Shown here piece by piece: positions 14,776 through 22,052 of a stretch of DNA of 37,889 nucleotides. Numbering within the stretch: the stretch's first letter is position 1; every line of letters begins with the position of its first letter. This stretch comes from Anaerolineae bacterium. GTDB lineage: Bacteria > Chloroflexota > Anaerolineae > UBA4142 > SHND01. Both the position numbers and the translations under genes were made by a program. The stretch covers positions 1-37,889 of the forward strand of contig JAJTXZ010000049.1 of NCBI GenBank assembly GCA_021463195.1, in the 5' to 3' direction. The notes beneath the pieces are model-generated. The model was not told where the DNA came from, did no database searches, and saw only the letters and a list, made by a program, of their open reading frames with translations.

Positions 14776-15188
14776 TGAATTTGTTTGGCGTGGGCCCGAT
14801 AGAAATTATTGTCGTGCTGATTGTGATTTTGGCGCTGTTCGGTCCGGACAAGCTGCCCGAACTGGCGAAAAAAATTGGCGGCGCGTCGCGCGAAATTCGC
14901 GAAGGGCTCAATTCGATAAACGAACAGATGAATTCGGCGCTCGAAACTTCGATGAATTTAGAAAAGGCGCAGATGCTCAAACCTACCGCCGCGACTGAAG
15001 AGCCAGCGAACGCCGACGATGCAACCGCGACCGAAACGCCAGCGAACGCCGACGATGCAACCGCGACCAAAGCGCCAACGAACGCCGATAACGCAGCTGC
15101 CTCGTCTCCCGTAAATACTTCCGCTCTCATCGCGCAAGCTTCTTCCGTCGAAACAACCGACTCTGATATACAGTCCGCGTCATCATGA
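14775..15188 (+). CDS. tatA: Sec-independent translocase subunit TatA
   Basis: A 137-residue Tat pore component. One N-terminal membrane helix (IEIIVVLIVILAL, about 8-20) is followed by the hinge FGPDKLPELAKKIG and an amphipathic helix. The C-terminal ~70 residues are Ala/Thr/Asp-rich, low-complexity and partly built from a 12-residue repeat (see 15003-15096), making the protein longer than the usual 60-90. The ATG at 14775 overlaps the nusB stop. The stop overlaps the start of the next gene by 4 bases. Confidence 0.92.
   Translation: MNLFGVGPIEIIVVLIVILALFGPDKLPELAKKIGGASREIREGLNSINEQMNSALETSMNLEKAQMLKPTAATEEPANADDATATETPANADDATATKAPTNADNAAASSPVNTSALIAQASSVETTDSDIQSASS
15003..15096 (+). repeat. 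36-bp tandem repeat inside tatA
   Basis: Two nearly identical 36-bp units (15003-15038, 15039-15074) and a diverged partial third unit. They encode the peptide pattern PANADDATATET, so copy number can change without shifting the frame. Confidence 0.85.
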
Positions 15189-16393
15189 CCGAAATTATTT
15201 CGATTGCGCTTTTGGCGCTCGTGGCGCTGCTCGTTATTGGGCCCCGTCGTTTGCCCGAAAGTGTGGAAGCGTTGTGGCTCGCGCTGACCGATTTTCGTCG
15301 CGTGCAGCGCGGCCAACCGCCGCTCGGCAATCTCTATAATGCGCGCCGTTACTGGATTAGCGCGAAAAATAATGTTTACGCGGGCATTCAAATTTTGTAT
15401 CAGGTCACGGCGCATCTTGAAGAATTGCGCCGCCGCCTTTTCTATGTGCTAATCGCGTTCGGCCTCGGGTTTGGCGTCGCCTTTTTTTTCGCGCAGCCAT
15501 TATTGGGCTTTATTATTCGTCCTGTGCGAATTATCGCGCCGACCACCGTCACGCAAATTCCAATCAATAATTACGCGCTGGCGGAAGATGTGCAAATTAC
15601 GACGAATGTCATCGGCGCAAGCGGCGCCATGAGCCAGACCATTACACTGCCCAAAGGCACGCTTCTGCCTTTGGGTTTGACCAACACCACGCCCATTGTT
15701 TTGAAACCGACCGAACTGTTTTCAGTGTACGTTCAAATCGCGTTGATTGCGGGTTTTGCGGTGGCGCTGCCGGTCATTTTATTTGAATTGGTTTTCTTTT
15801 TGCGCGGACCCAAATATGCCGTCGCGGCGCTGAACGCCGCGGAATGGCACGCGTACCAGAAAACTTTGGCGCCGGAAGAATTGGAAGAAAAAATTCAAGA
15901 GCGCGCCGCGGTGTACGAAGGACTGACCGCGCAAGAAATGCGTCCGATGTATTTCATGCTGCCCGTCGCGTTTGTCTTGTTTATAAGCGGCATTGTATTT
16001 ACCTATTTTTTGCTCTTGCCCAATGCGCTGGACTTTTTATTTTCGTTGGGTGGCTCGTTGGTGCAGCCGCTGCCGTCATTGGAAGAATATATCGGCTTTG
16101 CGTTAGCGTTGATTTTTTGGGTGGGTCTCGCGTTTGAATTGCCGCTCATCATGTTCTTTTTGGCGCGCTTTAATATCATGTCCGCGCGCCAGTTCGCGCA
16201 ACAATGGCGTTACGCTGTCATCATTATCGTCATCGCGGCAGCCGTTATTACGCCGACCGTGGATGTATTCAACATGACGCTGGTCGCGCTGCCAATGCTC
16301 GGATTATATCTGTTGGGCATCGGTTTTGCCTGGCTCGCGCGCCCGCGCGCGGCGGCAGCGGTTAAACAACTCCCCGCAAACACAAAATCTTGA
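15185..16393 (+). CDS. tatC: TatB-TatC fusion, twin-arginine translocase receptor
   Basis: A 402-residue protein combining two Tat receptor parts. Residues 1-45 look like TatA/B: a short membrane helix followed by the hinge GPRRLPE and a helix (VEALWLALTDFRRVQ). After a linker, TatC starts at HLEELRRRL (about 79-87) with six predicted membrane helices. Expected features include LKPTELF in the first periplasmic region, an acidic residue in QEMRP after the first cytoplasmic loop, and ITPTVDVFN with the conserved Asp. The first cytoplasmic loop has an insertion of about 45 residues (AAEWHAYQKTLAPEELEEK and beyond). It overlaps tatA by 4 bases, so tatA and this gene could form a complete Tat system. 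Confidence 0.9.
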   Translation: MTEIISIALLALVALLVIGPRRLPESVEALWLALTDFRRVQRGQPPLGNLYNARRYWISAKNNVYAGIQILYQVTAHLEELRRRLFYVLIAFGLGFGVAFFFAQPLLGFIIRPVRIIAPTTVTQIPINNYALAEDVQITTNVIGASGAMSQTITLPKGTLLPLGLTNTTPIVLKPTELFSVYVQIALIAGFAVALPVILFELVFFLRGPKYAVAALNAAEWHAYQKTLAPEELEEKIQERAAVYEGLTAQEMRPMYFMLPVAFVLFISGIVFTYFLLLPNALDFLFSLGGSLVQPLPSLEEYIGFALALIFWVGLAFELPLIMFFLARFNIMSARQFAQQWRYAVIIIVIAAAVITPTVDVFNMTLVALPMLGLYLLGIGFAWLARPRAAAAVKQLPANTKS

Positions 16394-16464: not shown

Positions 16465-17601
16465 TTACGCAGGCCGCTTGACGAGTGTCACTTGCACTTG
16501 GAGCGTTTGCCCGTCGCGCTCTACCGTTAGCGTAATCGTGTCGCCGACATGATATTTAAAGAGCAGCGAGCGCAGCGAATTATTTTCGTCAATCTTGTCG
16601 CGATTGATCGCGGTGACGACATCGCGCGCCTGCAAGCCCGCCGCTTGCGCCGGACTATTGGGAGTTACTTGCGACACAACGACGCCAGTTTTTGAAGTGA
16701 GATTCATTTCCGCCGCTATTTGCGGATTAATTTCGGAATATGAAATACCGATAAACGGGTATTCAATCCGTCCACTCGTAATCAACTGCTCCGCCACTGA
16801 ACGCACCGTATTGGACGGCACGGCAAAACCCAAGCCCTCGGCTTGATCGCCGCTGGTTGAATCGCGCACCACCAAGGTATTGATGCCGACGATTTGACCC
16901 GCCAAATTAATCAGCGGTCCGCCCGAATTGCCATGATTGATCGCGGCATCCGTTTGAATCAAACTATCTTGCGCTGTGCCTTGCACCGTCCGATTCAATC
17001 CGCTAACCACGCCAACCGTGACCGAACCGCGATAATTGCCCAACGGACTGCCAATCGCGATTACCGATTCGCCCAACTGCAGCGCGCTGGAATCGCCGAA
17101 CGCCGCGACCGCTGGCACTTGACCATTCACCTTTAGCACCGCGATATCGGTCACCGGGTCCGCGCCAACCACCGTTGCATCCGCGCGTTCACCATCACTG
17201 TAAATCACAAAGACACTGCTTGCCCCCTCAATCACATGATTGTTGGTGACAATATGTCCGTCTTGCGAAATGACTACGCCCGAACCCGACGCTTCGGCGG
17301 AACGATTCCCTTGTCCAAAGGTCGCGCCGCCCAAATTTGAAATGACGGTCACAACCGCCGGTTCGACCGCGCGCACTGTGCCAATAACTTCGGACGCCAA
17401 ATTGACCGTCATGTTTTGCGTAATCGGCGCCTGCGCCGGCGACACCGCTTTAATTACCTGCGACACCGGCGACGCAATTGGCGACGCGGTATTGCGCGCT
17501 ACATACATGCCGACCAATCCGCCCATGATGCCGCCGCCAACCACGCCAAGCATAATTCCTAAAACCACGATTATTACAATCCAACCGGATGAACGTGACA
17601 T
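16465..17601 (-). CDS. HtrA/DegP-type serine protease with PDZ domain
   Basis: A 378-residue envelope protease/chaperone of the S1C family. The N-terminal membrane anchor is at about 7-33. The trypsin-like domain contains the full triad: His122 (TNNHVIEG), Asp152 (TDIAVLKV) and Ser226 (HGNSGGPL). One PDZ domain occupies about 275-375 (LTSKTGVVVSQVTPNSPAQAAGLQARDVV). The role is degradation of misfolded exported proteins. The ATG at 17601 follows AGGAGG by 6 bases, an ideal ribosome site; the longer frame starting upstream is not needed. Confidence 0.93.
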   Translation of the reverse strand: MSRSSGWIVIIVVLGIMLGVVGGGIMGGLVGMYVARNTASPIASPVSQVIKAVSPAQAPITQNMTVNLASEVIGTVRAVEPAVVTVISNLGGATFGQGNRSAEASGSGVVISQDGHIVTNNHVIEGASSVFVIYSDGERADATVVGADPVTDIAVLKVNGQVPAVAAFGDSSALQLGESVIAIGSPLGNYRGSVTVGVVSGLNRTVQGTAQDSLIQTDAAINHGNSGGPLINLAGQIVGINTLVVRDSTSGDQAEGLGFAVPSNTVRSVAEQLITSGRIEYPFIGISYSEINPQIAAEMNLTSKTGVVVSQVTPNSPAQAAGLQARDVVTAINRDKIDENNSLRSLLFKYHVGDTITLTVERDGQTLQVQVTLVKRPA

Positions 17602-17630
17602 ACAAGTCCTCCTATATCCTTTCAAAAAAA

Positions 17631-17639
17631 ATTATCGCA
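17631..17639 (-). promoter_or_regulatory. Extended -10 element of htrA
   Basis: On the - strand TGCGATAAT forms an extended -10 about 29 bases before the ATG. The -35 is poor (ACTTGG-like). Confidence 0.4.
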
Positions 17640-17778
17640 TATCAAGATTAACCCAAGTTTAAGCTGACTTGAAGCATTCCAACGACGCGTTAGATTTTGA
17701 CGGTCGCAAATTTATTTCTTGCCGAACCGCCGCATCGCTGCGGCGCGCGATGAACAACGCTCGAATTTTTATGCGCCC

Positions 17779-19366: not shown

Positions 19367-19401
19367 GACGCCGCGCGTAAATCTTACACGCGGCGCCTTT
19401 A
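19367..19401 (+). terminator. Terminator after the DedA/VTT gene
   Basis: A 12-bp stem with one A/C mismatch (GACGCCGCGCGT with ACACGCGGCGCC) and loop AAATCTT, followed by TTT. Confidence 0.75.
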
Positions 19402-19402
19402 T

Positions 19403-19434
19403 AAAAGACAAGACATCGCGCTGTAGCGCGATGC
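19403..19434 (-). terminator. Minus-strand terminator ending the structured RNA
   Basis: On the - strand CATCGCGC-TACA-GCGCGATG is followed by TCTTGTCTTTT. It lies about 125 bases downstream of the riboswitch-like fold and is not preceded by a convincing ORF. Confidence 0.6.
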
Positions 19435-19559
19435 CTCGCCTTTACCACCCGATTAAGGAGAACCACCCTGTCACCAAACGCTGACAAAATTACTGACAGC
19501 GCCGATTCGTTTCAGCGCGTTCCACCCAACGCGCTAACGCAATCTCATTTTAAGGATCA

Positions 19560-19693
19560 GGCGGGGAATAGAGCTTGAACCCTCCGACTGGGGTGCGCTC
19601 TTACGAAACTTGTCAGGGCCGGATATTCGTAGCCTCGCTCCGCTTCACCCTTTTTGGCATCCCCCAACCTGTCGCCCATAGAATATCGTCGGC
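19560..19693 (-). ncRNA. Candidate structured RNA, possible c-di-AMP (ydaO-type) riboswitch
   Basis: Read on the - strand, the segment contains GGGGGATGCC, an A-run, GGGTGAAGC and later GGCCCTGACAAGTTTCGTAA. This order resembles the conserved blocks of the ydaO/yuaA c-di-AMP riboswitch (GGGGGAnCC, GGGGUGAA, CCCGACAGCU..C-UCGUA). CCGAC near the start can pair with GTCGG near the end to close the fold, and TACGAA/TTCGTA gives an internal helix. The usual GUAGGG block is missing, so the family assignment is tentative. Other - strand structure follows until a terminator at 19403-19434. No - strand gene starts after it. Confidence 0.4.
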
Positions 19694-19722
19694 AGATTAG
19701 CAAAAAATGAGAGACGAGTAAA
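19694..19722 (-). promoter_or_regulatory. Candidate promoter for the structured RNA
   Basis: On the - strand TTTACT (19717-19722) and TAATCT (19694-19699) are 17 bases apart, with TGC giving an extended -10. It would start transcription at the left edge of the fold. The remainder of 19723-19850 shows no gene. Confidence 0.4.
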
Positions 19723-19850
19723 AAATCAGTAAATCTAAAAATACGCTTTTTCTAACGCCGCGCAAGCGAAAGAATTTGGGCGCGCTAGGTTTTAGTCAAT
19801 GCCAAGCGCGCGCTCGACGTAGAAGTTGCCGCGCGCGGCGGCGTTCTCGG

Positions 19851-21257
19851 CTACGGCAGCGGCAGCCACACCGTGAACGTGCTGCCCTTGCCCACTTCGG
19901 ATTCCACTTGAATGTTCCCGTTGTGCGCGTCCACGACCGATTTGGCAATCGCCAAGCCCAACCCTGTGCCGCCCGCGTCACGCGAACGCGCCTTGTCCAC
20001 GCGATAAAAACGATCAAACAAATTGGGTATATGGTCCGGCGCGATTCCGATACCGGTATCATGCACTGAAATTTTCACCCACGCGTCATCTTTGGTCAAG
20101 CCCAATGTCACTTCGCCGCCCTGCGGTGTGTACTTGACGGCATTATCCACCAGATTCAGCAAGACTTGTTTCAAACGATCGCGGTCGCCCATAATGCTTG
20201 CCTGATCTTCGGCGCCCAACACAATTTTGACGCCGCGCGCGGTGAACTGCGCTTGGCGGTACACTTCCAACAGCAGCGTATCGAGTTCAATCGGCTGTTC
20301 CGCGATTGGAATGCCCGCGTCTTGACGCGCCAACAACAACAAATCGCTGACCATACGGCTCATGCGCGCGGTTTCCGAATCCATCGCGTCAACCATCTGC
20401 GCGCGTTCCAGCGGATCGTCCGCCGCGCCGCGTTTTAACAAATCCAAATTGCCGCGCACCGCCGTCAACGGCGAACGCAATTCATGCGACACATCCGCGA
20501 CAAAACGCTGCTGCGCGCGAAACAGTTCTTCAATACGCGCGAGCATTTCGTTAAACGTCAGCGCGAGCCGTCCCACTTCGTCAATTTTATTCGGCACGTC
20601 AATGCGGCGTCCCAAGTCGCGCGCGCGCGTGATTTTTTGCGCCGTCATCGTCACGCGATCAATCGGTTCAAGAATATTGCCCGCGATGAACCAACCGCCA
20701 ATCGTCGCCGTCGCCAACCCCGCCACGATGCTAATGATAATCAATGTCGCCAAGCCGCGCAGCGTGCTGTCCACCGTGCGCAGCGATTGCGCGAGTTGAA
20801 TGAAACCCACCACTTGGCCCGAACGCGTCGTAATCGGCGCTACGTACGCGCGCAGCCGAATGCCATTCACCGTAAAATCCGCCGGCGCGGTTTCGCCATT
20901 CTTGGCGCGTTCCAACTGCGCTTGCGAAATCACCAGCTGTTGATTGCCCAAATTTTCCGAGCGCGTAATCATATTGCCGTCGAGACTCGAAAGTTGGACA
21001 AAAATATCCGCCGTGGCAAACACATCCGCGTTGGGCAAAAACACGCCGCCGCGCCGAAACACTTCCCACGGGTCCTCTTGCAGCGTCAGAACAGTGGACA
21101 GACTGGCTTGAATATCATTGGCGCGCTGCTGAAGTTGACGGTCCACTTCTTGGTACGAAGTAATCGCGACCGTCGCGTACAACGCCGCGCCAAACAAGAT
21201 GAGGAGAAATGCCAAAAGTCCGACGTACCACAACGTCAGACGGAGACGGATGGACAT
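19851..21257 (-). CDS. Sensor histidine kinase (HAMP-HisKA-HATPase)
   Basis: A 468-residue membrane sensor. TM1 is at about 10-32, an extracytoplasmic sensing region runs to about 165, and TM2 is at 170-194. HAMP (about 195-245) and the dimerisation domain with His258 in DVSHELRSPLTAV follow. The ATPase domain has the N-box DNAVKYTP (Asn372), DTGIGI and GTGLGLAIAKS. It lies 95 bases downstream of its response regulator. The signal is not deducible from sequence. No terminator is obvious after the stop. Confidence 0.93.
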   Translation of the reverse strand: MSIRLRLTLWYVGLLAFLLILFGAALYATVAITSYQEVDRQLQQRANDIQASLSTVLTLQEDPWEVFRRGGVFLPNADVFATADIFVQLSSLDGNMITRSENLGNQQLVISQAQLERAKNGETAPADFTVNGIRLRAYVAPITTRSGQVVGFIQLAQSLRTVDSTLRGLATLIIISIVAGLATATIGGWFIAGNILEPIDRVTMTAQKITRARDLGRRIDVPNKIDEVGRLALTFNEMLARIEELFRAQQRFVADVSHELRSPLTAVRGNLDLLKRGAADDPLERAQMVDAMDSETARMSRMVSDLLLLARQDAGIPIAEQPIELDTLLLEVYRQAQFTARGVKIVLGAEDQASIMGDRDRLKQVLLNLVDNAVKYTPQGGEVTLGLTKDDAWVKISVHDTGIGIAPDHIPNLFDRFYRVDKARSRDAGGTGLGLAIAKSVVDAHNGNIQVESEVGKGSTFTVWLPLP

Positions 21258-21352: not shown

Positions 21353-22027
21353 TCAGTCCTCGCGCAACGCGTAGCCGACGCCGCGCACCGTTTGAATCAA
21401 GCGCGCTTCGCTGTTCGCTTCCAATTTTGACCTTAGGTAGCGAATATACACTTCGAGAATATTCGATTCGCCGCCAAAATCATAACCCCAAATCCGATCA
21501 TAAATCAATTCACGCGACAAGACTTGGCGCGGATGCATGATAAAGAAATGCAGCAAATCAAATTCTTTGGTTGTCAAATCAATCTTGCGGCCCGCGCGCG
21601 TCACCTCACGCGTTTTGGTATCCAATGACAAATCAGCAAAACGATAAGTCGTTTGATCCACCGGTTTGTTGCGGCGCAAAAGCGCTCTGACGCGCGCCAA
21701 CAATTCTTCAAACGCGAATGGTTTGACCAAATAATCGTCCGCGCCGCTTTCAAAACCTTTGACCTTGTCCGGCACGGTATCTTTGGCGGTCAGCATCAAA
21801 ATCGGCGTTTCGCCGCCCGAGCGCAATCGCCGCGCCACTTCCAAGCCGTCCAGCCCGGGCAGCATCACATCCAAAATAACCAAGTCAGGCACATTGTCGC
21901 GCGCCGCCTTCAAGCCCGCTTCGCCATCGTAGGTTACTTCGATTTTGTATCCTTCGTACGCCAAACCGCGTCGCAAAAAATCCGCGATTTTTATTTCGTC
22001 TTCAATGATTAGGATTCGCTCTGCCAT
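21353..22027 (-). CDS. OmpR/PhoB-family response regulator
   Basis: A 224-residue regulator. The receiver domain has Asp9/Asp10 acidic pocket residues, phospho-acceptor Asp53 (VILDVMLPG), Thr80 and Lys102 (LVKPF). The winged-helix output domain spans about 127-222 ([32 protein letters not shown]). It partners with the downstream histidine kinase. The ATG at 22027 begins [11 protein letters not shown]; the longer frame upstream would translate the -10 box. That box (TATAAT) is only 6 bases before the ATG, so the mRNA may be leaderless. Confidence 0.94.
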
Positions 22028-22033
22028 ACTCTG

Positions 22034-22039
22034 ATTATA
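22034..22039 (-). promoter_or_regulatory. -10 box of the response-regulator gene
   Basis: A consensus TATAAT on the - strand with only 6 bases to the ATG. No good -35 is present; a perfect palindrome (22053-22076) occupies that region and could be an operator. Confidence 0.5.
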
Positions 22040-22052
22040 ATTCAATTTTGTT

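Follow-up and report, generated by a model that had tools for sequence, protein, structure and literature searches.

A previously uncatalogued structured RNA in one order of uncultured Anaerolineae is a candidate small RNA of an htrA-type stress regulon

The window, i.e. the whole stretch of 37,889 nucleotides of Anaerolineae DNA that was analysed, almost certainly encodes a structured RNA on the minus strand around positions 19403-19722, and this region folds far better than its shuffled versions (z -3.8). We predict that it is a stand-alone small RNA some 310 nt long; its most compact relative would measure about 190 nt. The transcript and the genes that matter for its interpretation are:

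16465-17625, minus strand: HtrA-type protease (Trypsin_2 and PDZ domains), the proposed co-regulated gene
17631-17685, minus strand: htrA promoter found by matrix scan, 11-bp repeats CTTCAAG, CTTAAAC and GTTAATC plus GATAAT
about 19675 to about 19360, minus strand: predicted transcript
19851-21257, minus strand: histidine kinase (HAMP, HisKA and HATPase_c domains), directly upstream of the RNA
21353-22045, minus strand: OmpR-family response regulator (Response_reg and Trans_reg_C domains), the proposed activator of the RNA

The transcript boundaries replace 19403-19722, the limits given in a sequence-only reading of this DNA. The sequence blocks quoted there are present on the minus strand. 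It is also correct that no minus-strand ORF directly follows the RNA; the next gene, a VTT gene, lies on the opposite strand, and the next minus-strand gene beyond it encodes a polysaccharide deacetylase. On the plus strand, a 402-aa ORF (15185-16393) combines a TatA/B-like segment (residues 6-44, E 1.6e-4) with a TatC domain and is a possible TatA/B-TatC fusion.

On the minus strand, 19732-19552 is 85-90% identical across five other members of the genus, and the flanks diverge. From a homologue in another family of the same order, three more were traced. A covariance model built from ten sequences (R1) detected the RNA in 16 of the 20 genomes of the order, as a single copy in each and with E-values of 3e-9 or better, and gave no credible copy among the other 376 genomes of the class. 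The repeat search with a second model (R2) again recovered 16 of the 20, including all ten good-quality genomes (at least 90% completeness, at most 5% contamination); the four genomes of the order that lack a copy are 69-88% complete. The window copy scores 127 bits with R1 and 101 bits with R2. Among 400 genomes of the phylum, R2 returned weak hits only, the best of which reads as a coding region. The weak hits outside the order (G122 and G143 with R1; G169, G177, G595 and G637 with R2) were rejected, as those inspected have no repeat array, and the position of the hit in G169 (L101) reads as coding. A pattern scan of named genomes yielded nine loci that the model confirmed, all in Chloroflexota/Anaerolineae-type MAGs; the remaining five pattern hits gave no match to the covariance model and were discarded. 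Judged by these searches, the RNA is previously uncatalogued, falls outside every Rfam family and appears confined to one order of uncultured Anaerolineae (Chloroflexota).

Covariation supports an RNA core in which a four-way junction of helices P1-P4 is locked by a kissing pseudoknot between P3 and P4. The elements are:

19555-19672, minus strand: structured 5' domain, four-way junction P1-P4 (model scores and covariation)
19558-19670, minus strand: P1 closing helix, 19670-19659 with 19569-19558; two-sided changes at 10 of 12 pairs in 16 sequences
19632-19658, minus strand: P2 hairpin, GCC 19658-19656 with GGC 19634-19632
19602-19631, minus strand: P3 hairpin, UACGAA 19631-19626 with UUCGUA 19607-19602, loop UCCGGC 19623-19618; all six pairs with two-sided changes
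19571-19600, minus strand: P4 hairpin, GAGC/GCUC and an inner C-rich/G-rich helix, loop GUCGGA 19588-19583 (covariation)
19515-19534, minus strand: variable hairpin GCGCGUUGGGUGGAACGCGC; a GCGY..GGUGGGA..GCGC-like element in congeners

When the 16 sequences are aligned by fitting to the covariance model, 22 of the 29 helix pairs show two-sided changes. The number of two-sided cells is 47, as opposed to 16.5 in shuffles (none of 500 as high) and at most 8 in slid controls. The P3-P4 loop-loop contact is paired in 92.7% of cells and has 15 two-sided cells, compared with 5.8 in shuffles. A MAFFT alignment of ten sequences, which was not fitted to the model, gives the same covariation signal. The P2 loop carries GCGGAGC (19643-19637) in all 16 copies. 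One further closing stem seen in the window, UCUCAUUUU/AAAAUGAGA, was discarded because the relatives do not keep it. The closing CCGAC/GTCGG pair proposed earlier forms no helix: CCGAC (19692-19688) belongs to the spacer of the promoter, ahead of the -10 box, and is not kept in relatives (CGAAC, TTGAC and GGAAC), and GTCGG (19588-19584) belongs to the P4 loop, which pairs with the P3 loop. That the locus is a small mRNA for a short peptide is scarcely credible: an ATG does stand behind a G-rich stretch in 15 of 16 copies, but sequence changes track base pairing and the frames share no end, and we regard the RNA as non-coding because their lengths vary between 7 and 80 codons and the G010 copy has no start.

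The same fold bears on the identity that had first been suggested, a c-di-AMP riboswitch of the ydaO type or a close variant of it. The likeness consists of short G-rich and GGUGAA-like letters, such as the blocks GGGGGATGCC and GGGTGAAGC, and nothing more. No Rfam family matches the window at gathering level, and around the locus nothing of interest emerges at E-values up to 10, with RF00379 and RF00013 both silent. The ten relatives likewise give no RF00379 match at E up to 5, and the covariation-backed junction with its kissing loops is a different one. In addition, a ydaO element should form part of the 5' leader of a gene that it regulates and that runs in the same direction, but the new RNA is free-standing, the gene next to it in the window runs the other way and the downstream gene is inconsistent among copies. 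The genome (G000) has its true ydaO riboswitch elsewhere, on contig C72 (11075-11208; L001), which scores 77 bits and is the sole RF00379 hit above the cut-off. Taken together, a ydaO identity can be given practically no credence. 6S RNA (RF00013) resembles the new RNA in being structured, single-copy and equipped with its own promoter, but its model does not match at the locus. The best 6S candidate of the genome sits on contig C89 (20823-21004; L023); its score of 45.9 bits narrowly misses the Rfam cut-off of 46.4. A search for tmRNA and tRNA at the RNA loci found none.

Upstream of the core lies the promoter region:

19733-19680, minus strand: promoter array including the -10 box (revised boundary)
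19694-19733, minus strand: regulator array, TTTAC 19733-19729, TTTAC 19722-19718, CTCAT 19711-19707 and CTAAT 19700-19696; in 16 of 16 homologues
19680-19685, minus strand: -10 box TATTCT, aligned as TATNCT/GATACT/GATAAT in 16 homologues

The array consists of four direct repeats at 11-bp spacing, several columns of which are invariant among the 16 homologues; the repeats take the forms TTYAC, TTTTA, TTCTCAT and CTAATCT across the copies. The -10 box follows the last CTAAT repeat by 10 nt, and transcription is predicted to start at about 19675-19673. There is no -35 consensus, and the direct-repeat array stands in its place. A repeat array combined with a -10 box that lacks a -35 partner is the site layout of OmpR-family activators, and such an OmpR-type array replacing the -35 element, as expected of a response-regulator-controlled sRNA, is found in all 16 homologues. 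With up to two mismatches the array pattern is unique to the RNA locus in the genome. A genome search with a two-repeat motif performed no better than the reversed control. One two-repeat site resembling CTCTCAT-N6-CTAATCT (G000 contig C110, 10751-10770; L047) lies 60-70 nt before a 342-aa ORF that, as we read its sequence, resembles a FemAB-type aminoacyltransferase.

The 3' part of the RNA comprises two further elements:

19445-19464, minus strand: CU-rich anti-Shine-Dalgarno block GGUUCUCCUUAAUCGGGUGG; UUCUCCU-type motif in 16 of 16 homologues
19367-19435, minus strand: two 3' hairpins, 19435-19414 and 19397-19367, the second a probable terminator

The RNA had been credited with an intrinsic terminator of its own. 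The hairpins are indeed there, but in the window neither is accompanied by a T-run and no terminator-like site was detected at them; in relatives (G003, G004, G005 and G008) an equivalent 3' hairpin is followed by a U-run. What lies beyond differs between families. As we read the gene sequences, all six members of the genus share the order kinase, RNA, opposite-strand VTT gene and deacetylase. Apart from the copy in G018, most sister-family copies with resolved neighbours are preceded by what we take to be a methyltransferase gene and followed by what we take to be a dipeptidase gene. Past the hairpin, the dipeptidase genes carry a TATAAT-like box of their own, and the compact copy, L042, already stops at a U7 terminator ahead of that box. 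Because the neighbours differ by family, the dipeptidase gene has its own box and several copies end in U-tract terminators, the previously considered ligand-controlled readthrough into the deacetylase gene is unlikely. The alternative offered alongside it, a stand-alone regulatory RNA, is supported. A cis-acting riboswitch or attenuator of an unknown class that controls the gene behind it would accord with a fold as elaborate as a riboswitch aptamer and with the co-directional dipeptidase gene that follows in most of those sister-family genomes whose downstream gene is resolved. Yet the next gene in the window's genus is on the opposite strand, the dipeptidase box lies past the hairpin, L042 stops before it, and the RNA has an activator-type promoter to itself. 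We thus consider action in cis improbable.

A matrix built from the RNA promoters alone links the array to htrA. Among about 75,000 positions scanned in the window, the top score is that of the RNA promoter (67 bits); the htrA promoter comes next with 8.2 bits, and the best unrelated site after it reaches 0.8. The htrA promoter is also second in G004 and G005, as it is in G000, and third in G003; it was not found in the scans of G001 and G002. Its repeats have drifted to a TTTAAG/GTTAAG type with weak scores in the window's genus. In the sister family, by comparison, the four-repeat pattern is clearly commoner than the reversed-pattern control, and on inspection of the hits eight genomes have the array before orthologues of the window HtrA (51-56% identity). 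We therefore rate the link to htrA as strong for the sister family and as moderate for the window's genus, where the promoters rank variably and the repeats are TTTAAG/GTTAAG-like. Membership of the RNA in an htrA-type stress regulon is well supported. Because the sister family has this array ahead of htrA as well, the system appears to respond to envelope or secretion stress. The genus htrA promoters (window 17685-17631; L197, 6318; L198, 5400; L199, 4857), with TTTAAG/GTTAAG at 11 bp, are strikingly similar to the streptococcal CiaR site and unlike the CTCAT/CTAAT repeats before the RNA. The four-repeat array also stands at four sister-family loci (L182, L187, L190 and L191) upstream of genes for exported or lipoprotein-like products; among these are small secreted proteins whose function is unknown and a lipoprotein that is esterase-like in sequence.

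The regulator that would bind the array is most likely the one encoded nearby; the link to this two-component system is good, and the regulator would activate the RNA. Besides the six genus members, one sister-family genome (G018) has the same kinase upstream of the RNA, and in another (G011) the kinase orthologue shares the strand of the RNA and lies 2.6 kb upstream of it. RNA and kinase are not neighbours in most sister-family genomes. When compared with NCBIfam, neither kinase nor regulator reached an equivalog cut-off. It might be that the RNA is real and answers to another OmpR-family regulator, and that its synteny with the adjacent kinase and regulator is fortuitous. The numerous kinase paralogues in sister-family genomes, the mostly missing adjacency in that family and the dissimilarity between the htrA repeats of the window's genus and those of the RNA would fit such a scenario; the adjacency in six of six genus members and one sister-family genome and the 2.6-kb distance in another speak against it. 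On balance, we regard a different regulator as unlikely.

In every copy, the CU segment is located downstream of the core and is complementary to Shine-Dalgarno sequences. It is UUCUCCUCCUU-like in the sister family and UUCUCCUUUGUUGGGUGG-like in the window's genus. The sister-family segment often occupies a small hairpin loop, as in G011 (UUCUUC-UUUCUCCUCCUC-GAAGAA), and the predicted mean probability of the motif being unpaired is 0.51-1.0 there and 0.12-0.49 in the window's genus, i.e. partly paired. A search for exact complements (the AAGGAGAAC Shine-Dalgarno) gave few genes shared between genomes and supported no target. Most likely, the RNA would pair with Shine-Dalgarno regions and block mRNA translation.

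Sequence comparison shows the RNA, its fold and conservation, the repeat array, the linkage to the kinase, the occurrence of this array at htrA in the sister family and the conserved CU motif. From these features we infer a scenario for transcription, the binding regulator, the type of stress, mRNA pairing and targets. An OmpR-family regulator, most likely the one encoded with the kinase just upstream, would bind the four 11-bp repeats and activate the RNA from a -10 box that has no -35 partner. The 5' four-way junction, locked by the kissing loops, would probably stabilise the RNA or bind a protein or ligand. Next, the RNA would expose its CU-rich anti-Shine-Dalgarno segment, which in the sister family mostly sits in the loop of a small hairpin, and a terminator hairpin would form the end. 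By pairing with the Shine-Dalgarno regions of mRNAs it could block translation while HtrA clears damaged proteins. We consider it fairly probable that the RNA is such an sRNA, acting in trans within a two-component envelope-stress regulon of the htrA type, similar in logic to CiaRH and its csRNAs but with an unrelated, elaborate 5' fold.

The most serious competitor is a protein-binding or scaffold RNA, acting for example on RNA polymerase or ribosomes, whose CU motif contacts a protein or the ribosome and is not an mRNA seed. Unlike in most base-pairing sRNAs, conservation is highest in the structured 5' domain; in addition, the CU motif resembles the 16S anti-Shine-Dalgarno sequence itself, and the exact-complement search returned no conserved targets. 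But a CU loop on a non-conserved stem is the pattern of anti-Shine-Dalgarno sRNAs such as NfeR1/alpha-r14, and the genome has a separate 6S candidate; a scaffold role is thus somewhat unlikely. It is quite doubtful, though worth considering, that the 5' junction and kissing loop form a sensor, responsive to a ligand, an ion or a protein, and thereby control whether the anti-Shine-Dalgarno loop is exposed. If so, the trans-acting sRNA would have two inputs, a two-component promoter and an aptamer.

The trans-acting sRNA that we favour has parallels elsewhere. In Streptococcus, the site bound by CiaR, TTTAAG-N5-TTTAAG, precedes the -10 box by 10 nt, and the CiaR regulon includes htrA and the csRNAs, which have regions complementary to Shine-Dalgarno sequences (PMC3091779). 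In our reading, both systems combine a regulator of the OmpR family with direct repeats that are spaced by 11 bp and end 10 nt ahead of the -10 box, a regulon that takes in htrA, and sRNAs with a terminator at the end and with Shine-Dalgarno-complementary regions, which are unpaired in csRNAs, predicted open in the sister family and predicted partly paired in the window's genus. However, they belong to different phyla and have no sequence relationship, only their logic being in common: the RNA family is limited to one Chloroflexota order, with neither a streptococcal CiaR orthologue nor csRNA similarity, and it occurs in one copy as opposed to two to six csRNAs. Its promoter has four repeats, and a covarying junction and pseudoknot are not described for csRNAs. 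The alpha-proteobacterial alpha-r14/NfeR1 and cuckoo sRNAs are built of three hairpins, each bearing CCUCCUCCC, and are transcribed from sigma-70 promoters (PMC10746234). They share with the new RNA, above all with its sister-family copies, a CU-rich anti-Shine-Dalgarno motif in hairpin loops on poorly conserved stems, whereas the new RNA has a single CU loop after a large conserved fold. Neither CiaRH csRNAs nor NfeR1/alpha-r14 are relatives by sequence or fold. The two-component systems CssRS and Cpx also control HtrA/DegP-type proteases, Cpx together with the CpxQ sRNA. In these cases the likeness is a two-component system with an HtrA-type protease, and in Cpx also a small RNA, and not a demonstrated orthology; the kinase and regulator of the window reach no NCBIfam equivalog cut-off.

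A literature search for regulatory sRNAs of Chloroflexota found no described one. The defined RNA, its promoter array and the candidate regulator are now directly testable, including on leaders with AAGGAGGAGA or AAGGAGAAC Shine-Dalgarno sequences. If our reading is right, the control of htrA and of a Shine-Dalgarno-targeting sRNA by one OmpR-type regulator would have arisen, or would persist, in a distant and largely uncultured phylum, and the pairing of the streptococcal type would recur there with a much more elaborate RNA.
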